A stretch of DNA of 56,974 nt from Sneathiella sp. Its GTDB lineage: Bacteria; Pseudomonadota; Alphaproteobacteria; Sneathiellales; Sneathiellaceae. Below are positions 11,704-29,482 of the stretch, piece by piece (within the stretch, counting starts at the first letter, position 1; every line of letters starts with the position of its first letter). Location: positions 439,175 to 496,148 of the forward strand of contig NZ_NZMB01000012.1 of the NCBI RefSeq assembly GCF_002694385.1. The letters run 5' to 3'. The translations under genes and the position numbers were made by a program. The notes under the pieces are model-generated. The model was not told the origin of the DNA, searched no databases, and saw nothing but the letters and a program-made list of their open reading frames with translations.

Positions 11704-11798
11704 CAGCTTCGCCCTTGTCCCTTGCGGACATCCGTGATAGCCATTTTGGCGACATTTTACCGGCTTTCAGAGCCGCCTTTTCAAGGAGATATCCGTTC

Positions 11799-15074: not shown

Positions 15075-15899
15075 CTAACGGCTCAACTCTTCCTGGCGGC
15101 GGTTATAAAGGGTGACGATCTGCGCCGCCGTTTCCTCCACCGAGCGGCGGGTGACATCAATGATCGGCCAGCCTTCGCGGGTGAACAGCTTGCGGGCGAA
15201 AATCACCTCTTCCTTGATCCGGTCACGGTCCACATAATCGGTTTCGACCGTCTGATTGAGGCTGAGCAAACGGTTGCGGCGGATTTCCGAAAGACGGTCC
15301 GGGCTTGTCGTCAGGCCAATAACCATGGTCCTGCGGTTCAGCGCAAACAGCGATTCCGGTAACGAGATGCTGGGAACAATCGGGATATTCGCCGTTTTAA
15401 AACCGCGGTGGGCGAGATAGAAGGAAGTGGGCGTTTTTGAAGTCCGCGACACCCCGACAAGGATAATCTGCGCTTCATAAAGATCGTCGGTCATCTGCCC
15501 ATCATCATGGGCCATGGTGAAATTCAGCGCCTCGATGCGGCTGAAATAATTCTTGTCCAGCATATGCTGGCGGCCGGGAAGGCGGCGGATTTCCTTCCCC
15601 AGAAAGTCGGAAAAGGCCGTCAGAACGGGGTCGAGCACGGAAACGCAAGGCACGCCGACCCGCTGACAGCCCATTTCCAGCACATCGCGCATTTCCTTGC
15701 TGACCAGGGTATAAAGCACAAGACCGGGCTTTTTCATAATGGATTCAAGGATATCATCGAGCTGCCGCACGGTTCTTGTCAGCGTCCAGACATGTTCGAC
15801 CGGGGTCACCCCCTCAAACTGGACCAATGCGGCCTTGGTCATGGATTGCAGCGTTTCGCCGGTCGAATCCGAAACCAGATGAAGATGAAATTCCGCCAT
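15075..15899 (-). CDS. ppsR: Pyruvate phosphate dikinase / PEP synthase regulatory protein
   Basis: This DUF299-family bifunctional kinase/pyrophosphorylase turns pyruvate phosphate dikinase or PEP synthase off and on by ADP-dependent phosphorylation and Pi-dependent dephosphorylation. The 274-residue protein begins MAEFHLHLVSDSTGETLQSM and has the P-loop-like ILVGVSRTSKTPTSFYLA near residue 145, plus GLTTSPDRLSEIRRNRL. I place the start at ATG 15899; an upstream in-frame extension to 16004 would run through the tandem DnaA-box block and is not part of the family. It is the first gene leftward from the probable origin. Confidence 0.9.
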   Translation of the reverse strand: MAEFHLHLVSDSTGETLQSMTKAALVQFEGVTPVEHVWTLTRTVRQLDDILESIMKKPGLVLYTLVSKEMRDVLEMGCQRVGVPCVSVLDPVLTAFSDFLGKEIRRLPGRQHMLDKNYFSRIEALNFTMAHDDGQMTDDLYEAQIILVGVSRTSKTPTSFYLAHRGFKTANIPIVPSISLPESLFALNRRTMVIGLTTSPDRLSEIRRNRLLSLNQTVETDYVDRDRIKEEVIFARKLFTREGWPIIDVTRRSVEETAAQIVTLYNRRQEELSR

Positions 15900-15917
15900 G
15901 TTGCCGTTTGAAAATCC

Positions 15918-15944
15918 TGTGAATAACGTGAATAACAGGGATAA
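15918..15944 (-). promoter_or_regulatory. Three abutting DnaA-box-like 9-mers
   Basis: On the plus strand the block reads TGTGAATAA, CGTGAATAA, CAGGGATAA with no spacer. On the minus strand these are TTATTCACA (a perfect match to TTATNCACA), TTATTCACG (one mismatch) and TTATCCCTG (three mismatches). It starts 18 bases upstream of ppsR, so bound DnaA could also repress ppsR. Confidence 0.65.
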
Positions 15945-16013
15945 CACGGCTTTTTTGCAATGAGCAAAAATTTTCTCCCCATTCGCCGATTTTTTCGCCG
16001 TCAATTATCCGGC

Positions 16014-16022
16014 TGTGGATGA
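16014..16022 (-). promoter_or_regulatory. DnaA-box-like 9-mer, one mismatch
   Basis: The minus strand reads TCATCCACA, one base from TTATCCACA. It lies in the middle of the ppsR-hemE gap. Confidence 0.5.
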
Positions 16023-16045
16023 TCTTCTTTTTACATGTTTAATCA

Positions 16046-16054
16046 TGTGCACAA
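16046..16054 (-). promoter_or_regulatory. DnaA-box-like 9-mer, one mismatch
   Basis: The minus strand reads TTGTGCACA, one mismatch from TTATNCACA, centred on the palindrome TGTGCACA. Confidence 0.4.
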
Positions 16055-16165
16055 CATCACCGACTGGACCCGAAATGAAACTTATCCCCGATATCCCCAT
16101 CTTTTTGAACACCCTCTGACCTTGTTTTCCAGACGGATACCCCCATAACAGGGAAAGGGTGGATT

Positions 16166-16174
16166 TTATCCCCA
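16166..16174 (+). promoter_or_regulatory. DnaA-box-like 9-mer, one mismatch
   Basis: The plus strand reads TTATCCCCA, one base from TTATCCACA. The same TTATCCCC octamer recurs at 16082-16089, which suggests a repeated lineage-specific motif rather than a chance match. Confidence 0.4.
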
Positions 16175-16293
16175 TAAATCCTATAAAGGGCGGGGATATT
16201 TTTTAATCCCCGGAACCCACAGCAACAAACAACAACAACATCCTTTTTATATAAATATATATTGAAAGGGATAACTATCCGGAAGGGACCCAA

Positions 16294-17331
16294 GTGAGCA
16301 TATCAGAAACAAAAGCTCTGCTCCGAAGCCTGCAAGGGGAACAGATGGCAAGACCGCCCTTCTGGCTGATGCGTCAGGCCGGGCGCTACCTGCCGGAATA
16401 CCGGGCCGCGCGCGCCGATGCCGGCAGCTTTCTCGATCTTTGCTATAATCCGAAGCTGGCCGAGGAAGTGACTTTGCAGCCGCTCCGCCGCTATGGCATG
16501 GATGCGGCCATCCTGTTCGCCGATATTCTCCTTATCCCCCATGCGCTGGGTCAACCGCTTGCCTATCGCGAAGGGGAAGGACCGGTTCTTGATCCCATCC
16601 GCTCCGCCGCCGAGTTGTCCAAACTTGATGTGACGCGCATCCATGAGACACTGGCGCCGGTGTATGAGACAGTCTCCCGCCTGTCACAGTCAATCCCGCA
16701 GAGTTGCACCCTGATCGGCTTTGCCGGGGCGCCCTGGACCGTTGCGACCTATATGGTCGAAGGGCGGGGATCCAAGGATTATGCCCATACAAAACACTGG
16801 ATTTACAGCGATCCGGACGGATTTGGCGAGCTCATGGAAATTCTGGTGGCCTCGACTACGGAATATCTTCTCCGTCAGGTCGCGGCGGGGGCGGAGGTGA
16901 TCCAGATTTTCGATACCTGGGCCGGGGTGCTTCCCGATGATGCCTTCCGCAAATGGGCCATAGAGCCGACGCGGCGCATTGTTGAGGGGCTGCGTGCCCG
17001 CCATCCGGATTTGCCCGTCATTGGCTTTCCCAAGGGCGTGGGCGCCAATATTATCGACTATGTGAAGGAGACAGGCGTGACCGCCGTCAGTCTGGATACG
17101 GGAACGCCGCTTCACTGGGCGGCGCAGGAAGTGCAGTCGCTTGTTCCGGTACAGGGTAATCTCGATCCGCTGCTGCTGGTGGAAGGCGGCGCGGCGATGG
17201 AGCGGAGAATTGCCGAAATCCTTGAAACCCTTGGGAAAAGGCCCTTTATTTTCAATCTTGGCCATGGCATCGTGCCGCAGACGCCGCCGGAAAATGTCGC
17301 ACGGCTGGCGGCACTGATCCGCGGGGAATAG
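16294..17331 (+). CDS. hemE: Uroporphyrinogen decarboxylase
   Basis: HemE removes the four acetate carboxyls of uroporphyrinogen III to give coproporphyrinogen III. The 345-residue protein begins with [17 protein letters not shown] near residues 21-37, containing the substrate Arg residues, then [16 protein letters not shown] with the catalytic Asp region and [16 protein letters not shown]. It starts at GTG 16294 with GGAAGGG about 7 bases upstream. It is the first gene rightward from the probable origin and leads hemE-hemH-hemJ. Confidence 0.96.
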
Positions 17332-19117: not shown

Positions 19118-20377
19118 ATGAATCTTCAAGAACTTAAGAAAAAAACCCCTTCCGAAATTCTGGAACTTGCAGAAGCGCGGGAGATTGAGAACGCGTCCAC
19201 CCTGCGCAAGCAGGAACAGCTTTTCGCCATTCTCAAATATGAGGCGGAAAATGGCGCCGAGATCACCGGCGGCGGGGTTCTGGAGATTTTGCAGGACGGG
19301 TTCGGTTTTCTGCGCTCCCCCGATGCCAACTATCTCGCCGGGCCCGATGATATTTATGTGAGCCCGAGCCAGATCCGCCGCTTTTCGCTCCGCACCGGCG
19401 ACACGGTGGAAGGGCAGATCCGCAGCCCCAAGGATGGGGAGCGGTATTTCGCCCTGCTGAAGGTTCAGAAAATCAATTTTGAGGATCCGGAAAAGGCCCG
19501 TCACAAAATCAATTTCGATAACCTGACGCCGCTTTATCCCGATGAGCGGATCAAGCTGGAAACCCCCGATCCGACGGCCAATAACATCAATTCGGCGCGG
19601 GTGATCGATCTTGTCGCGCCGCAGGGCAAGGGCCAGCGCGCGCTGATCGTCGCCCCGCCGCGGACCGGTAAGACGGTTCTGCTGCAAAATATAGCCAATT
19701 CCATCACCACCAACAATCCGGAGGTCTATCTGATCGTCCTGCTGATCGACGAACGGCCGGAAGAGGTGACGGATATGAAACGCTCCGTCCGCGGAGAGGT
19801 GATCAGCTCCACTTTCGATGAGCCGGCCGCCCGCCATGTGCAGGTCGCGGAAATGGTCATCGAGAAGGCCAAGCGCCTCGTCGAGCATAAGCGCGATGTG
19901 GTTATCCTGCTCGACAGTATCACCCGTCTTGCCCGCGCCTATAACACCGTCGTGCCCTCCAGCGGCAAGGTGCTGACCGGCGGTGTCGATGCCAACGCCC
20001 TGCAACGCCCGAAACGCTTCTTCGGCGCGGCCCGTAATATCGAGGAAGGCGGCTCGCTGACCATCGTCGCCACCGCCCTCATTGAGACCGGCTCGCGCAT
20101 GGATGAGGTGATTTTTGAGGAATTCAAGGGCACCGGCAATTCGGAAATCATCCTTGACCGGAAACTCTCCGACAAGCGCGTCTTCCCGGCCATCGACATC
20201 ACCAAATCCGGTACCCGTAAGGAAGAACTGCTGGTTGACAAGGCGACGCTGCAGAAAATGTGGGTCCTGCGCCGCATCCTCAACCCGATGGGCACCACCG
20301 ACGCCATGGAATTCCTGCTCGACAAGCTGCGCCACAGCAAAACCAATGACGACTTCTTCGATTCCATGAATACGTGA
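19118..20377 (+). CDS. rho: Transcription termination factor Rho
   Basis: Rho is the hexameric RNA helicase that ends many transcripts. The 419-residue protein has the N-terminal helix bundle ([20 protein letters not shown]), the RNA-binding cold-shock domain with [20 protein letters not shown] near residues 64-83, the Walker A loop [18 protein letters not shown] near 180, and Walker [19 protein letters not shown]. The 215-base upstream region is large enough for the leader often used in Rho autoregulation. Next to hemJ, the placement is typical of alphaproteobacteria. Confidence 0.97.
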
Positions 20378-20410
20378 TTTAAAATACCACTAATGGTAAA
20401 AAGGAATCTA

Positions 20411-20449
20411 AATCAATGACTTACGAGTTATATTCGTATGTTATTGATT
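20411..20449. repeat. Large hairpin downstream of rho
   Basis: The arms 20411-20426 and 20434-20449 pair over 16 positions with one mismatch and one G-T wobble around a 7-base loop (GTTATAT). The left arm reads AATCAATGACTTACGA. A further ATTGATT copy follows at 20452-20458. It is A/T-rich, 33 bases after the rho stop and at the edge of the DUF3800 islet. It could be a terminator-like structure or a remnant of an insertion boundary. Confidence 0.55.
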
Positions 20450-20554
20450 CTATTGATTTATTATTAAATTAATAGTATAATGAGAAAGTGGGTCGCCGGA
20501 GAACTCGGGTTGTTGGCTTTTATGTTCAATGGCGTCTATTGGGATGGTTGGAGA

Positions 20555-21457
20555 TTATGATTCTGGCCTATTTGACCTTAGATTAGACGAGCCCGGGTCC
20601 CACCATTGATTTGGATAGCCGTAATATCTAAAAATTTCTTCCTGTTCAGTTTGTAAGTTAGCTGCCTTTAAGCTTGGAATTAGCTTAACTCCATATCCTG
20701 ATGGCTTTGTTAGAGGCTGATCTTTATATTTTGCGATTCTTGGATTAAGTAATTTTGCAAATCGGGTATCACAAGAACCAGTATTATATATATCACAAGC
20801 TTTAAAAAAAGAGCTTGCTACAATATCTGCCAATTGTAAGCCTGCTCTTTCTTCAGCTGAATAAACCTTCAATAGTTTGTATTCTAATACGTCCCAATAC
20901 ATCCTACCAGATTTTATAAAAGTGTTTTCACCTTGTAATCGCATCCAATCATAATAGGCACTCATCTGCGAATAAGATAAACCCCCTCGATTACTATATT
21001 CAACTTTGAGTTTATGTGGTCTTCCTGTTTCTTTAATTGAGTGCCAATTAACAAAATTAGTTACTCTTTCGAGTAGTATTCTTGTCATCCAGCAATAGAA
21101 CCAATTTTTAGATGGAATTTTTGCAGCGAAAGGATTGTTGTATCCTCTCATGTTTTTCTTATTAGAACATACTACAAAATATCGTGCTTCTAAATTTGCT
21201 AATTGATTACATACAAATAACTTTTTATTTTCATTAAGCTTTGCAAAATGCAGGATTTTTGAGTTATGCCGCCATAGGCCATCTTGAATATCTTTTACCC
21301 ATTGTTTTACTTCACTTTCTCGTTCTGCCCTTACAAGAACGGCAGAAATAATTAACCATTCGCTGGAACCATTATTATCAATTGGTCTAATGACTTTAAG
21401 TCCGTCATCGCCAGCTTCATCAATATAAGCGACATATCTGTACAAAATAATATCCAA
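20555..21457 (-). CDS. DUF3800 domain protein
   Basis: The protein belongs to the DUF3800 family, whose function is unknown; members have a predicted RNase H-like fold and often occur as single genes on mobile or defence-rich DNA. The 300-residue sequence opens with YVAYIDEAGDDGLKVI, the family hallmark YxDExGD, and later has YCWMTRILLERVTNF and the second acidic region ERAGLQLADIVASSFF near 205-220. It is strikingly A/T-rich, with many Lys, Asn and Ile codons unlike those of its neighbours, and interrupts the rho-to-mnmE stretch. I infer horizontal acquisition. No partner toxin, antitoxin or transposase gene is beside it. Confidence 0.78.
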   Translation of the reverse strand: MDIILYRYVAYIDEAGDDGLKVIRPIDNNGSSEWLIISAVLVRAERESEVKQWVKDIQDGLWRHNSKILHFAKLNENKKLFVCNQLANLEARYFVVCSNKKNMRGYNNPFAAKIPSKNWFYCWMTRILLERVTNFVNWHSIKETGRPHKLKVEYSNRGGLSYSQMSAYYDWMRLQGENTFIKSGRMYWDVLEYKLLKVYSAEERAGLQLADIVASSFFKACDIYNTGSCDTRFAKLLNPRIAKYKDQPLTKPSGYGVKLIPSLKAANLQTEQEEIFRYYGYPNQWWDPGSSNLRSNRPES

Positions 21458-21513
21458 TTACATGCGAGAAATATAAGTAATATCATACAATCATAAGATT
21501 CAAAATATTACAT

Positions 21514-21542
21514 AAAAAGGCGCCACAATCGGGCGCCTTTTT
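21514..21542. terminator. Bidirectional intrinsic terminator
   Basis: GGCGCC at 21519-21524 pairs with GGCGCC at 21532-21537, flanked by AAAAA and TTTTT, so the hairpin with a U-run works on either strand. It lies 21 bases beyond the end of the quinone oxidoreductase gene, which it probably terminates, and it insulates the DUF3800 gene. Confidence 0.8.
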
Positions 21543-21562
21543 GTTTGGGTTTCGGGAAAAAA

Positions 21563-22537
21563 TCACACCGTAAACACCGTTGATCCGGTGGTTTTGCGCC
21601 CCTCAAGGTCTTCATGGGCCTTGCGGGCTTCACTAAGCGGGTAGGTCTGGTTGATGGTGACCTTGATCGCGCCGCTTTCGACAAGTTTCATCAGATCGCC
21701 CGCGGATTTTTCAAGATCGGCGCGCTTCGCGTTATAGGTCATCAGCGTCGGCCGGGTGATATAGAGCGATCCCTTGGCGCCCAGTACCCCGAGATCGAAA
21801 TTCGTCACCGGACCGGAGGAATTGCCGAAAGAAACCATCAGCCCACGCGGGGAGAGACAATCGAGGGATTTTTCAAAGGTATCCTTGCCAATGGCGTCAT
21901 ACACCACGGGCACGCCCTTGCCGTCCGTTATTTCCATGACGCGCTTCTGGAAATCCTCCGTCCGGTAGTTGATCACATGGCTGCAGCCGAGGGATTTGGC
22001 AAGCTCGCCCTTTTCCTCCGACCCAACGGTGCCGATCATGGTCGCCCCGATATGGCGCAGCCACTGGCAGACGAACAGCCCGACGCCGCCCGCCGCCGCA
22101 TGGAACAGCACCGTATCGCCCTGTTTCACGTGAAACGTCCGTTGCAGCAGATATTCCGCCGTCATGCCCTGCAGCATCATGGCCGCCCCGGTCTGATCAT
22201 CAATGCCGTCCGGGAGTTTGATCAGATTATCCACCGGCATGATGCGCGCTTCCGAATAGGCGCCGATGGGGCGGCCCGCATAGGCGACGCGATCGCCGAC
22301 ATTGAAACCGCTGACGCCCGGGCCCAGCTCCTCGATCACGCCGGCCGCCTCCATGCCGGTGGTCAGCGGCAGCGGGGCAGGGTAGAGACCGGTGCGGAAA
22401 TAGACATCAATGAAATTGAGGCCGACCGCCGTATGGCGCACGCGCGCCTCTCCCGCTCCGGGCGCACCGAGGGTGACCTCTTGCCATTTCATGACCTCCG
22501 GGCCGCCATGTTCCTGCTGGACAATTGCTTTTACCAT
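21563..22537 (-). CDS. NADPH:quinone oxidoreductase (zinc-free MDR family)
   Basis: This medium-chain dehydrogenase/reductase resembles QOR, which reduces quinones with NADPH. The 324-residue protein has EHGGPEVMKWQEV near the start, GLNFIDVYFRTGLYP near residue 40, the family's DTVLFHAAAGGVGLFVCQWL Rossmann loop near 135-155, and no structural zinc cysteines. AAGGAGAGG precedes the ATG. A near-perfect parS sequence (22122-22137) is embedded in its coding region at TFHVKQ. It is separated from ogt by 33 bases and may be co-transcribed with it. Confidence 0.88.
   Translation of the reverse strand: MVKAIVQQEHGGPEVMKWQEVTLGAPGAGEARVRHTAVGLNFIDVYFRTGLYPAPLPLTTGMEAAGVIEELGPGVSGFNVGDRVAYAGRPIGAYSEARIMPVDNLIKLPDGIDDQTGAAMMLQGMTAEYLLQRTFHVKQGDTVLFHAAAGGVGLFVCQWLRHIGATMIGTVGSEEKGELAKSLGCSHVINYRTEDFQKRVMEITDGKGVPVVYDAIGKDTFEKSLDCLSPRGLMVSFGNSSGPVTNFDLGVLGAKGSLYITRPTLMTYNAKRADLEKSAGDLMKLVESGAIKVTINQTYPLSEARKAHEDLEGRKTTGSTVFTV
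22122..22137. other. parS-like site, 15 of 16 bases
   Basis: TGTTTCACGTGAAACG differs from the palindromic ParB site TGTTTCACGTGAAACA in its last base only. It is within the quinone oxidoreductase gene, about 4.7 kb before the main parS cluster and 6 kb from the probable origin. Confidence 0.65.
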
Positions 22538-23050: not shown

Positions 23051-25076
23051 GGCCGGTGGTCTCCTTCAGAAGGGCGGTGAACGCGATCACATCATTGACG
23101 GGCAGCGAACAACTCGGCCCGGTGCAGAGATAGGCGGTCGGTCTGCCGTCCAGGCGGCCCTTGCCCTTTGCCGGATGATCGAAGGGCAGCGCTTCCGTAT
23201 CGGGGAGGATGTTGAGAACCTTCGCGGGCAGGCTGAAATCCTTCAGAACATTCACAAGATCAATGACTTCCGCCTCGCTCCGTTCGCCGATGATAATCAC
23301 CTGCCGGGCGTTGATCAGCGTCTCGAAATTATTGAGAAGCGTCGCCAGCGGGAAGAAATTGCGCCCGAGTTCCGCGGAAAAATAGCGGATCGAGGCCATG
23401 GCCGCCTCAAACGGTGCGCGCGCGCCGGTCAGCAGATGCAGCTTCGCCAGCACTTCCAGCATCACCCCGTTGCCGGAGGGGACGGCGTTGTCCATGGCGT
23501 TCTTGGTGCGGATGATCAGCGCCTCCGCGTCATCGGCGGTGTAGAAATAGCCGCCCGCGTCATCTGCGAAATGACGGCCCAGAATCTCCGTCCATTCCTC
23601 CGCCCGGGCGAGGTAAAACCCCTTGCCGGTCACCTCATGGAGGGTGAGGGCGGCGCGCGCCATATTGGCGTAATCATCGAGCAACCCCGTATGCATTGCC
23701 CGGCCCAGGCGGTAGCTGTGCGAGAGGCGGCCGTTCTCTTCCATGGAATGCGTTGTCAGGGCGACGAAGGCCTTCTCCGCCGCCTCGATCCAGTGCGCCT
23801 CGTCAAAATAATGCCCGGCACGGGCGAGGGTGGCGATCATCAGGCCGTTCCAGTCGGTCAGCACCTTGTCATCGAGCCCCGGCCGAATGCGGGTTTCCCG
23901 CGCTTCAAACAGCTTTTGGCGCCCTCGCGCCAGCCGTTCCTCTGTCGCCTCGTCAAGCAATTCGGGATATTTCAACCGATTGATAATGTTGGTATTTTCC
24001 CAGTTTCCTTCGGGCAGGATGGCGTGAATTTCGCAAAATTGCGCGGCCTCATCGCCGAGAATTTCCTCAATCTCCGCTTTCGACCAGACATAAAACTTGC
24101 CTTCCACGCCTTCGGAATCCGCGTCGATCGTGGCGGCGAAACCGCCTTCCGCTGTCACCATCTCGCGCAGCAGCCAGCCGACCGTCTCATAGATGCGCGC
24201 CTCGAACAGCTCCGATTTCGTCTCGTGATGCACGGTCAGCATCAGATCGAGGATCTGCGCATTGTCATAGAGCATCTTTTCAAAATGCGGCGCGAGCCAG
24301 TATTGATCGGTGGAATAGCGGGCATAGCCGCCGCCCAGATGATCATAGATGCCGCCCTGCGACATGGCGGTCAGCGCCTTGATCACCACTTCGGAAAGCG
24401 CGGTATTGCCCGTCCGCAGATAGCTGCGCCAGATATTTTCCAGCACATAAACCTGCGGGAATTTCGGGGCGGAGCCGAGACCGCCATGCACCGGGTCGGC
24501 TTCCTCCGCATAGCGGGCGGCGATGCGGTCCAGCACCTCGATCGTCAGCTTCGGCCGCTCCCCGTCATTGCTTTCATTGAGCTTTTTCAGCGCCGATTTG
24601 AGGGCGTCGCGGTTTTTCGTCACCTTTTCAGGCTCGTTTTTGAAAATCTCCGCGACCGTGGTCAGCACATTCTGAAAGCTCGGGCGGCCATAGGCGGTGG
24701 TGGGTGGGAAGTAGGTGCCGCCCCAGAACGGCTCCCCGTTTGAGTTCAGGAACATGGTCAGCGGCCAGCCGCCCTGTTCGCCCAGAAGTGCGAGGGCACT
24801 CTGGTATATCTGGTCGATATCGGGGCGTTCCTCCCGGTCCACCTTGATATTGATGAACATCTCGTTCATCAGCGTCGCCGTCGCGTCATTCTCAAAGCTT
24901 TCATGGGCCATCACATGGCACCAGTGGCAGGCGGCGTAACCGACGCTGAGCAGGATCGGCTTGCCCTCTCTTTTCGCAAGGGCGAGGGTTTCCGCGCTCC
25001 AGGGTTGCCAGTGGACGGGATTGTCGGCATGTTGAAGGAGATAGGGGCTCGTTTCCGCGCCCAGCATGTTTTTCAT
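23037..25076 (-). CDS. Thioredoxin-fold DUF255 protein (YyaL/SPATA20 family)
   Basis: Members of this widespread family join an N-terminal thioredoxin-like domain to a glycosidase-like (alpha/alpha)6 toroid; the function is not established. The 679-residue protein starts [20 protein letters not shown], has [20 protein letters not shown] with the CxxC pair near 50-55, and later [21 protein letters not shown] use ATG 25076, with AGGA about 7 bases upstream; ATG 25103 is an alternative and the frame is open much further upstream. It is divergent from the small DUF6489 gene, with 100 bases between starts. Confidence 0.88.
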
Positions 25077-26803: not shown

Positions 26804-26819
26804 TGTTTCACGTGAAACA
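26804..26819. other. parS site 1 (perfect)
   Basis: TGTTTCACGTGAAACA matches the ParB-binding palindrome at all 16 bases. It is in the mnmE-mnmG gap, 27 bases after the mnmE stop, and is the first of three in 98 bases. Confidence 0.95.
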
Positions 26820-26846
26820 TTTTGGAGTATGAAGAGGGCGTTTCAA

Positions 26847-26862
26847 TGTTTCACGTGAAACA
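26847..26862. other. parS site 2 (perfect)
   Basis: The site is a full 16-base match in the mnmE-mnmG gap, 43 bases after site 1 from start to start. Confidence 0.95.
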
Positions 26863-26885
26863 TTTTTGACCCCAGCCGCCGTCGA

Positions 26886-26901
26886 TGTTTCACGTGAAAC
26901 A
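26886..26901. other. parS site 3 (perfect)
   Basis: The site is a full 16-base match in the mnmE-mnmG gap, 39 bases after site 2 and 75 bases upstream of the mnmG start codon. ParB loaded here could influence mnmG transcription. Confidence 0.95.
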
Positions 26902-26976
26902 TTTTCTTGGGGTCGATTCTGCCCTTGTCAAAAAAGCCGAGTCTCTATATTTAGAGCCAGATATTGCGGAGTTTTT

Positions 26977-28839
26977 ATGAGCAAATTTGATGTCATCGTC
27001 ATCGGGGGAGGGCACGCAGGCTGCGAGGCGGCGGCGGCGTCCGCGCGACTCGGGGCGAAGACCCTGCTGATCACCCATAAGCTGGAGACCATTGGCGAAA
27101 TGTCCTGCAATCCGGCCATTGGCGGGCTGGGGAAGGGACATCTGGTGCGGGAAATTGATGCGCTGGATGGCGTTATGGGCCGGGTGGCCGATGCGGCGGG
27201 CATTCAGTTTCGCCTTTTGAACCGGCGCAAGGGGCCCGCCGTCCGGGGTCCGCGCGCTCAGTCGGACCGCAAGCTCTATCGCGAGGCCATGCAGGCGGCC
27301 CTCATGGATCAGGAAAACCTGACCCTCCGCGCGGCAGCGGTGGAGGATCTGATGGTTCAGGACGGCGCGGTCACAGGCGTGATTACCGCCGACGGCACCG
27401 AGATATCCGCCGCGAAAGTCATTCTGACCACCGGCACTTTCCTGCGCGGCCTGATCCATATGGGGGAGAAGACGTTTCCCGCGGGGCGGATCGGCGATGC
27501 GCCCTCCATGGGGCTGTCCGCCACTCTTGAAAAGGCAGGCTTTATTCTTGGTCGTCTGAAAACCGGGACGCCCGCGCGTCTTGATCGGAACAGCATCAAC
27601 TGGTCCCTTCTGGAAGAGCAGCCGGGCGATGAGGTGCCGGTGCCCTTCTCCTTTATGACGGACAGAATCACGACGCCGCAGATCTCCTGTCATATTACGA
27701 CGACGACAGAGGCGACGCATCGGGTTATCCGCGATAATCTGCACCGCGCGCCGATGTATTCCGGGCAGATTGAGGGGACGGGGCCGCGCTATTGCCCGTC
27801 GATCGAGGATAAGGTTGTGCGCTTTGCCGACAAAACGGGCCATCAGATCTTTCTGGAGCCTGAAGGGCTGGATGATGACACCATTTATCCCAACGGGATT
27901 TCCACCTCTCTGCCCGAAGAGGTGCAGATGGCCTTTCTCAGGACCATTCCCGGCCTTGAAAAGGTGGAATGGTTTCGCCCCGGCTATGCCATTGAATATG
28001 ATTTCGTTGATCCGCGCGAATTAAAGCCGACGCTGGAAACCCGGCGGCTCAAAAATCTGTTCCTGGCGGGGCAGATCAACGGCACGACCGGATATGAAGA
28101 GGCGGAGGCGCAGGGGCTGATGGCCGGACTGAACGCCGCGCGGGCGGCCGGTGGCGGGGCGGATATTGTTCTCGACCGGGCCGACGCCTATATCGGTGTG
28201 ATGATTGACGATCTGGTAACGCGCGGGGTGACGGAGCCCTATCGCATGTTTACCTCCCGCGCTGAATACCGCTTGATTCTGCGCGCCGATAATGCGGATC
28301 AGCGGCTGACACCGCTCGGGGTCGCGCTTGGTTGTGTCGGATCGGCGCGGGCCGCGCATTTTAACCGCAAAAGCACGGAACTTGCGCGGGCGCGGGCGGT
28401 TTTTGACGGCCTTAAGCTGACCCCCAATGAAGCGCGCCAGCAGGGGCTGAATGTGAATCAGGACGGGGTGCGGCGCTCGGCCTTCGATCTGCTGGCCTAT
28501 CCGGATATTGACGGGGAGGACATTCTCCGTATCTGGCCGCAGGTGGCGGAAATTGCCCCGGATATTCGCGAACAGCTCGCCATCGACGCGCTGTATAGCG
28601 GCTATCTGGAGCGGCAGAAGGCGGATATCCGCGATTTCCGCAAAGATGAGGAGCTGACCCTGCCGGAAAACATCCGGTTTGAAGAAGTGGCGGGGCTGTC
28701 CACGGAAATCCGTTTGAAACTGTCGGAGGTGCGGCCGACAACGCTGGGCCAGGCCGCGCGTATTTCCGGCGTCACCCCGGCGGCGCTGACGGCGCTGCTC
28801 TCCTATGTCAAGCGCGGCGTCCATCGCCAGCATGGGTGA
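26977..28839 (+). CDS. mnmG: tRNA uridine-5-carboxymethylaminomethyl modification enzyme MnmG
   Basis: MnmG (GidA) is the FAD-dependent partner of MnmE in wobble uridine modification. The 620-residue protein begins [20 protein letters not shown] with its FAD dinucleotide fold, then [20 protein letters not shown] near residues 47-66, the [19 protein letters not shown] segment, and the catalytic-Cys region [15 protein letters not shown]. The true start is ATG 26977 (GGAG 6 bases upstream); an in-frame extension back to 26866 would translate parS site 3 and is not in the family. It overlaps rsmG by 8 bases. Confidence 0.96.
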
Positions 28840-29482
28840 GGGCGATTCCCGATTAGACGCGGCGGGATTTCAGGCCGCCAGCAATGTTTCACGTGAAACA
28901 TTGGACCGGCTTGAGACCTATGCCGGGCTGCTGGAAAAGTGGCAGAAGGCCATCAATCTCGTTGGAAAATCGACGCTGCCGGACCTGTGGCGGCGGCATA
29001 TGCTCGACAGTTATCAGCTCCTGGTATTGGCGGGCCGCGGGGCGGGATGTTGGCTCGATCTCGGCAGCGGCGCGGGATTCCCGGCGCTCGTCGTGGCGAT
29101 CTGCGGTAATTATGACGTTCACGCCATTGAAAGCGATCATCGCAAATGCCTGTTCATGGGAAATGTTTCACGTGAAACATTGGCCGACCTCACCGTGCAT
29201 CGCGGCCGGATTGAGGAAATTCCGCCCTTTCGCGCCGATGTCATCTCCGCCCGCGCCCTCGCGCCGCTTGAAAAGCTGCTCGAACTGGCGGCCCCTTTTG
29301 CCCATGCGGACACAGAGTTTCTGTTTTTAAAGGGGCAAGATGTAGATGAGGAATTGACCAAAGCTTCTAAATGTTGGATTATGAAGGTCGAAAAACACCG
29401 TAGTGTAACAAGTGAAGACGGCACAATCCTGAAAATCACTAATTTGCGCCGCCGCTCACCTTCAACAGAGGCAGTATCATGA
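28832..29482 (+). CDS. rsmG: 16S rRNA (guanine-527-N7)-methyltransferase
   Basis: RsmG (GidB) methylates G527 of 16S rRNA; its loss gives low-level streptomycin resistance. The 216-residue protein has the SAM-binding motif [17 protein letters not shown] near residue 70. Two perfect parS sites are inside the gene and both are read in the frame that gives Asn-Val-Ser-Arg-Glu-Thr (residues 18-23 and 111-116). I take ATG 28832, inside the mnmG end; ATG 28805 is an alternative. The C-terminal 30 residues are variable. It overlaps parA by 4 bases. Confidence 0.93.
28885..28900. other. parS site 4 (perfect), inside rsmG
   Basis: This perfect 16-base palindrome is in coding sequence near the 5' end of rsmG, giving NVSRET in the protein. 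It lies in a region of low constraint before the methyltransferase core. Confidence 0.95.
29164..29179. other. parS site 5 (perfect), inside rsmG
   Basis: This perfect 16-base palindrome in the middle of rsmG again encodes NVSRET. It sits 279 bases after site 4 and about 300 bases before parA. Confidence 0.95.

Follow-up and report, generated by a model that had tools for sequence, protein, structure and literature searches.

The DNA analysed here (hereafter the window) is a 57-kb stretch of 56,974 nucleotides that sits in contig C1 (684,534 bases) of a Sneathiella draft genome (3.6 Mb, 30 contigs). It contains a gap without genes between ppsR, whose product matches PF03618 (Kinase-PPPase, which we take to be COG1806/DUF299), and the divergent gene hemE, which encodes uroporphyrinogen decarboxylase (PF01208; Table 1). 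A first-pass annotation had described this gap as 394 bases long, and both the open reading frames and the Pfam matches place its ends at exactly the same bases. The neighbouring genes it had named, maf, aroE, coaE, dnaQ and secB, agree with Pfam, dnaQ by an exonuclease domain only. The claim that genes on both sides run away from the gap holds for the adjacent genes (five on the left, four on the right) but fails for secB, which lies at 11715 and is oriented toward the gap, and the net strand bias over 60 kb is near zero (0.07 left, 0.02 right, by greedy ORF gene calls). No RNA family was found in the window at the gathering score of an Rfam scan, and a tRNA scan of the window found none. As had been noted, dnaA is outside the window: we found it at C1:420130-421548, ~34 kb to the left of the gap. 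Just left of the window, at C1:438385-439009, a PF01555 DNA methyltransferase domain is present as two adjacent pieces in different frames, as if frameshifted.

Table 1. Features of the ppsR-hemE region (positions in the window; C1, contig coordinates).
Feature	Position	Strand	Evidence
Candidate oriC, ppsR/hemE intergenic gap	15900..16293		Gap length in relatives, skew change-point, box density
ppsR (COG1806/DUF299, PF03618 Kinase-PPPase), left boundary gene	15075..15899	-	Pfam E 6e-93
hemE (PF01208), right boundary gene, GTG start at 16294	16294..17331	+	Pfam E 1.8e-120
DnaA box TTATTCACA, first of genus-conserved tandem pair (consensus TGTGGATAA on +)	15918..15926	-	Pattern scan, alignment
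Second tandem DnaA box TTATTCACG (consensus TGTGAATAA on +)	15927..15935	-	Scan, alignment
Weak box-like GGGATAAC after tandem pair, strongly conserved	15938..15945	-	Alignment
DnaA box TCATCCACA, one mismatch, kept in part of genus	16014..16022	-	Scan, alignment
W-box-like TTATCCCCG; TTATCCCC invariant in 23/23	16082..16090	+	Scan, alignment
W-box-like ATATCCCCA, tandem with TTATCCCCG, less conserved	16091..16099	+	Scan, alignment
DnaA/W-box TTATCCCCA inside conserved block GGATTTTATCCCCA	16166..16174	+	Scan, alignment
W-box-like ATCCCC, invariant in 23/23	16206..16211	+	Scan, alignment
DUE-side DnaA box position, degenerate: GAACCCACA, 3 mismatches to TTATCCACA	16213..16221	+	Alignment
Triplet (trio-like) element, 3'-TTT GTT GTT GTT GTA-5'	16227..16241	-	Period-3 C on + strand
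Predicted AT-rich DNA unwinding element (DUE)	16243..16263		Weakest 20-bp duplex, 16243-16262
Box-like AAGGGATAAC (GTTATCCCTT), conserved, beyond AT-rich block	16266..16275	-	Alignment
Five exact parS sites, probable partition centre	26804..29179 (C1:465978-468353)		Pattern search; reversed pattern 0

Alphaproteobacterial origins of the hemE/COG1806 kind are recognized by several criteria, and we compared the gap with those that sequence can address. Its boundary genes are hemE and COG1806/DUF299 by their matches to PF01208 and PF03618, and its 394 nt fall inside the 200-1000 bp given for such origins. Its AT content is raised, with a GC fraction of 0.414 as compared to 0.582 in the window and 0.568 in 400 kb of the contig. 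The gap is also enriched for DnaA sites in a scan that covered 400 kb of the 3.6-Mb draft: it holds five TTATNCACA-like sites, where 394 nt contain 0.17 on average, and none of 1015 non-overlapping 394-nt segments contains five or more. The gap had been described as holding one perfect and several one-mismatch DnaA boxes, which is correct against TTATNCACA (one exact site, the first box of the tandem pair, and four sites with one mismatch that start at 15927, 16014, 16046 and 16166) but not against the strict consensus TTATCCACA, for which the gap contains no perfect match and three sites with one mismatch. The exact hexamer ATCCCC occurs five times in the gap, a count that one of the 1015 segments equals; the top place for this hexamer in the 400 kb is the gap itself, and the runner-up has three copies.

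To compare this region among relatives, we searched 40 of them for hemE and obtained a match in 37; one congener was left out since its hemE is cut at a contig end (G013). The ppsR-gap-hemE layout is present at all 22 same-genus loci, with gaps of 393-421 nt and hemE identity down to 69%. In an alignment of 23 rows, conserved blocks follow one another from the ppsR side as two tandem leftward boxes with GGGATAAC, GTTATCCCC with a tandem ATCCCC-like site, GGATTTTATCCCCA, AATCCCC with a box, the triplet element, the AT-rich block and AAGGGATAAC. Another criterion for origins of this kind is a similarity to close relatives above expectation, and the comparison made here is one within the gap: the mean major-base frequency is 0.83-0.92 in these motif blocks as compared to 0.62 in the other 257 columns of the gap alignment, and 21 of the 34 columns in the block that contains the tandem boxes (15916-15949) are invariant. 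The DUE-side box is more variable: it has no mismatch or one mismatch at 12 of the 19 Sneathiella loci where our script located it, and this box, which adjoins the triplet element, reads TTATCCACA or TTATTCACA in the deeper species and carries at least two mismatches in the closer relatives of the window. The ATCCCC core beside this degenerate box is invariant throughout the genus alignment.

The gene arrangement extends outside the genus, as ppsR is divergent upstream of hemE at 73 of 80 named loci (the best 80 of 571 confirmed relatives). Of the other seven, four have less than 1 kb of upstream sequence and three lack ppsR in 2.4 kb or more. The same arrangement was found in 33 of 40 class samples, which were hand-chosen from the 122 genomes with a hemE match (of 144) and weighted to better matches.

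The first-pass annotation had pointed to an A/T-rich block at about 16241-16267, and duplex stability calculated from nearest-neighbour energies bears this out, as the weakest 20-bp duplex in the 57-kb window lies there. At greater duplex lengths, weaker places exist elsewhere (one at 27 bp, three at 50 bp and six at 80 bp), all of them in an AT-rich island at 20400-21500. This island (GC 0.43 over 20001-22000) is 4.3 kb to the right of the candidate origin, between rho and an mnmE-like ORF; it holds a 300-aa minus-strand ORF and looks like an insertion.

Between the DUE-side box and the AT-rich block, the plus strand carries a C at every third base. At 19 Sneathiella loci, 5.58 of six triplets past the box begin with this base as compared to 2.95 in shuffled sequence (SE 0.17); the values are 4.82 and 3.54 (SE 0.13) at 44 other alphaproteobacterial loci and 4.24 and 3.31 (SE 0.27) in 17 class samples. 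The signal is thus strong within Sneathiella and weaker beyond it. The phase was the best of three in data and shuffles alike. Counts were made on loci with a pattern-found DUE-side box (19 of 23 Sneathiella, 44 of 73 other alphaproteobacterial and 17 of 33 class-sample loci); the element is visible in the alignment of the four Sneathiella rows left out (L025, L030, L032 and L034). We excluded L054-L058 from the set of other alphaproteobacterial loci as apparent duplicates of G003, G021, G020, G010 and G007, and did not pool this set with the class samples because the two overlap (L247 is an apparent duplicate of L101 with the same element). Several named loci are near-identical to one another.

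On the minus strand read 3' to 5', which is the DnaA-trio convention, the triplets read G-N-N. The middle base at the 19 Sneathiella loci is T in 50 cases, A in 28, G in 28 and C in none (n = 106), and the third base is T in 82 and A in 24. Nineteen of the 28 middle G residues belong to the sixth triplet, which is CCT on the plus strand in every row and may lie outside the element; without it, T accounts for 50 of 87 middle bases. Outside the genus, the middle base is G in 81, T in 66, A in 62 and C in 3 cases, and the third base is A in 105, T in 80, G in 24 and C in 3.

We considered whether the triplet element is a by-product of a short coding frame, a hemE leader or base composition that makes no contact with DnaA. 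A period of three is typical of coding DNA, no stop codon interrupts any of the three plus-strand frames within the short triplet stretch, and the weaker effect outside the genus is in keeping with this reading. Nevertheless, a stop at 16252 closes the hemE frame between the element and the start codon, the shuffles preserve the composition of each segment, and the genus alignment has the pattern at a fixed place between the last box and the AT-rich block. A coding origin of the element is unsupported, although a short peptide could be encoded there. On this evidence, we regard a by-product as unlikely, and treat the triplets as a candidate site of DnaA contact.

A shift in GC skew is another criterion for origins of the hemE/COG1806 kind, and such a shift is present at this locus. 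Raw cumulative skew over C1:255001-655000 has the form of a V, which falls to ~420 kb, is near flat to 465 kb and then rises. A skew minimum had been predicted at the gap; in these 400 kb, the strand-corrected switch is 983 nt from the gap, but the raw minimum is at C1:463,768 (position 24,594 of the window), 8.5 kb to the right and past both minus-strand ORFs and an AT-rich stretch. The corrected switch comes from a change-point model fitted to third-position skew, with gene strand entered as a covariate. Gene calls followed a greedy longest-ORF rule, which makes the figures approximate, and the scores of the model assume independent genes and Gaussian errors and serve as a guide, not as a formal test. 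In the source genome, the gap itself scores 0.40 log units worse than the change-point and the dnaA position 20.3 log units worse. The corrected change-points in six relatives (G003, G005, G014, G021, G012 and G022) are 52, 53, 49, 366, 1247 and 5134 nt from the gap. Thus, the change-point is within 1.3 kb of the gap in six of seven genomes and 5.1 kb off, to the right, in one (G022). The gap scores within 2.2 log units of the best position in all seven (2.2 in G012).

The complete genome of one congener (G012, 3.94 Mb) allowed us to follow skew around a whole chromosome. In 27 sampled 20-kb stretches, the sign changes once at the origin region and once more in the interval 2.0-2.2 Mb. Skew is negative in all 14 stretches that run from 2.2 Mb across the start of the record to 40 kb, with hemE at 37 kb, and positive in 12 of the 13 that cover 40 kb to 2.02 Mb, the exception being one at 60 kb (-0.006). 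In two complete congener records, the dnaA match begins at bases 140 and 23 and hemE follows ~36 kb later, so numbering from dnaA starts these two records ~36 kb from the likely origin.

A probable partition centre lies on the same side of the gap as hemE. Its five exact parS sites are flanked by ORFs that we read by eye as mnmE, mnmG/gidA, gidB, parA and parB, and all seven genomes have a parS cluster on the right of the gap, at a distance of 9.6-13.8 kb. The source genome contains 12 parS sites that are exact or have one mismatch, as compared to none for a reversed-pattern control. Further copies are at C1:403145, C1:506683 (one mismatch), C1:593574 and position 22122 of the window (one mismatch), a spread of ~190 kb around the origin; G022, like the source genome, has scattered parS sites farther off.

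As position, anatomy and skew agree, we conclude that the ppsR-hemE gap is very probably the chromosomal origin of replication (oriC) of Sneathiella and of the known hemE/COG1806 kind. The support for this conclusion is sequence-based and consists of position, conservation, site enrichment, duplex weakness and the skew switch, which also sustain the earlier proposal of an origin made from position and motifs. Several observations count against it: no box in the gap matches TTATCCACA perfectly, the one next to the AT-rich block is degenerate, the raw skew minimum lies 8.5 kb to the right here and ~8 kb to the right in two of six relatives, the corrected change-point of G022 is 5.1 kb off, and in G012 the gap scores 2.2 log units below the best place. 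It is very improbable that the gap is instead a mere divergent promoter of ppsR and hemE, at which DnaA serves as a transcription factor and the origin is elsewhere, e.g. at dnaA. The gap does separate two divergent gene starts, and DnaA boxes occur in promoters as well, but a conserved array of boxes over ~400 nt together with a melting block exceeds the needs of two promoters. Furthermore, the dnaA position loses 5.1 to 38.6 log units in all seven genomes and no more than 26 nt separate dnaA from the preceding ORF, both of which speak against an origin at dnaA. Also very improbable is an origin up to ~8 kb to the right (16.3-25 kb of the window) that has the gap as a neighbouring DnaA-titration site, since the raw minimum described above, raw minima ~8 kb to the right in two of the six relatives and the corrected change-point of G022 are set against corrected change-points that three relatives place no more than 53 nt from the gap and this genome 983 nt from it, raw minima within 1.2 kb of the gap in four of seven genomes, and the absence of a comparable box cluster from 16.3-25 kb.

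For the proposed Sneathiella origin, the arrangement of sites suggests how initiation could proceed. DnaA would bind the tandem boxes near ppsR and a row of weaker, W-box-like ATCCCC sites, and loading would advance toward hemE. The last boxes would set the DnaA oligomer beside the triplet element, where one strand may be gripped while the AT-rich block melts and helicase is loaded.

PMC1914354 names the same boundary genes for the Caulobacter crescentus origin (Cori), an experimental origin, which places the Sneathiella origin with a known kind, and lists Cori as 404 bp and four Rickettsia origins as 383-396 bp. The Sneathiella gap resembles hemE/COG1806 origins in its length of ~400 nt, raised AT, DnaA boxes and a nearby par locus. 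It also shares the W-box core, given as TCCCCA for Caulobacter in PMC4285127, with three copies in the source gap and at least one in 21 of 23 Sneathiella gaps. Unlike Caulobacter, the G-box TGATCCACA is present in 0 of 23 Sneathiella gaps, and the CtrA site TTAA-N7-TTAA is found in none of the 23 as an exact match and in two with one mismatch (mean 0.09 per gap as compared to 0.56 in shuffled gaps). CtrA is nonetheless encoded (NF045991, 419 bits, cut-off 350). As the sites are absent despite the presence of ctrA, repression of this origin by CtrA through its standard sites is unlikely, and we rejected this form of control. We did not treat CtrA sites as defining, because PMC1914354 lists hemE-side origins that lack them, namely those of Ehrlichia ruminantium, where sites emerge only with two mismatches, and of one Wolbachia strain.

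A CcrM-like methyltransferase is also encoded (best model CcrM, 629 bits, under the cut-off of 830); its site GANTC is absent from the source gap and occurs at least once in 11 of 23 Sneathiella gaps. GANTC is depleted throughout C1:255001-655000 (486 copies, where five first-order Markov sequences average 1917), so absence from the gap says little on CcrM control. An IHF site is a further criterion for origins of the hemE/COG1806 kind; with one mismatch to the consensus allowed, IHF-like sites are absent from the source gap and present in 12 of 23 gaps (mean 0.65 as compared to 0.72 in shuffled gaps).

For Hyphomonas neptunium, PMC6650430 reports a marker-frequency maximum close to hemE. Six of the loci we examined are Hyphomonas loci or align with them (L125, L126, L127, L129, L130 and L132, including two MAG loci). 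Their gaps contain one TTATCCACA-like box (one mismatch) in total and two to four copies each of TGTGACTC, which is expected ~0.01 times per gap by chance and contains the CcrM site GANTC. One of these genomes (G058) yielded a single DnaA match, which shares 31% identity with the Sneathiella protein, and it is possible that these loci are served by a divergent DnaA with an altered box.

The unwinding side of the Sneathiella gap has the layout of the Bacillus subtilis basal unwinding system (BUS), with a box, a short spacer, triplets with a conserved 3' G and AT-rich DNA in the same order. The two differ in that the B. subtilis DnaA-trio is 3'-GAT-5' and the middle base in Sneathiella is most often T. 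The BUS rule of PMC8287927 asks for at least three 3'-NAN-5' trios no farther than 16 bp from a DnaA box. In its single-box form, this pattern is absent from the unwinding side of the source gap and present there in four of 23 Sneathiella gaps, and we set this form of the rule aside for the unwinding site; anywhere in the gap, it occurs in 20 of 23 (the source gap included) as compared to 36% of shuffled gaps. In Escherichia coli, recruitment of ssDUE needs TTGT and TTATT on the T-rich strand (PMC5742627). Like E. coli, the Sneathiella minus strand has TTGT repeats, with TTGTT 50-110 nt before hemE in 21 of 23 gaps; unlike E. coli, TTATT is present in two of 23 gaps and IHF-like sites are no commoner than in shuffles. 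The Thermotoga maritima oriC, according to PMC10316083, has TAG repeats in a DUE that combines a module of triplets for binding with an AT-rich one for unwinding. Sneathiella is similar in this two-module plan at the level of sequence, and its triplets and DnaA box are not those described there for T. maritima.

We also asked how the triplets relate to the residues of DnaA that contact them. For Bacillus DnaA, PMC10721633 reports that Asn187 contacts the middle A and that Arg202 and Glu228 contact the G; C is tolerated as the middle base, and T and G impair function. In an alignment to the 8btg DnaA chain, the Sneathiella protein carries Tyr, Lys and Glu at positions 187, 202 and 228, respectively; of the two residues that read guanine, Glu228 is thus retained and Arg202 gives way to the similar Lys. 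Across DnaA from 30 alphaproteobacterial genomes of our choosing, the Asn187 position is Tyr in 28, Phe in one Sneathiella (G005) and Ser in one very divergent Hyphomonas protein. The triplets of G005 (locus L043) are not visibly different from those of other Sneathiella, so there is no support from within the genus for a link between residue and triplet, and the relaxed middle base and the changed residue are one class-level coincidence without independent replicates. As a tentative and still doubtful proposal, alphaproteobacterial DnaA may open the origin on a relaxed 3'-GNN-5' code (3'-G[T/A/G][T/A]-5' in Sneathiella) instead of 3'-GAT-5', with DnaA and the unwinding element having drifted together.

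These analyses locate a probable origin for the genus Sneathiella, for which we found no origin description in the open-access literature searched, and provide a footprint across 23 genomes that resolves DnaA sites, triplet element and unwinding block to single bases. Should a relaxed triplet code indeed exist, scans for trios that require A in the middle would put the unwinding site of Alphaproteobacteria in the wrong place, and single-stranded origin recognition by DnaA outside Bacillus would be testable through swaps of one residue and a few bases.
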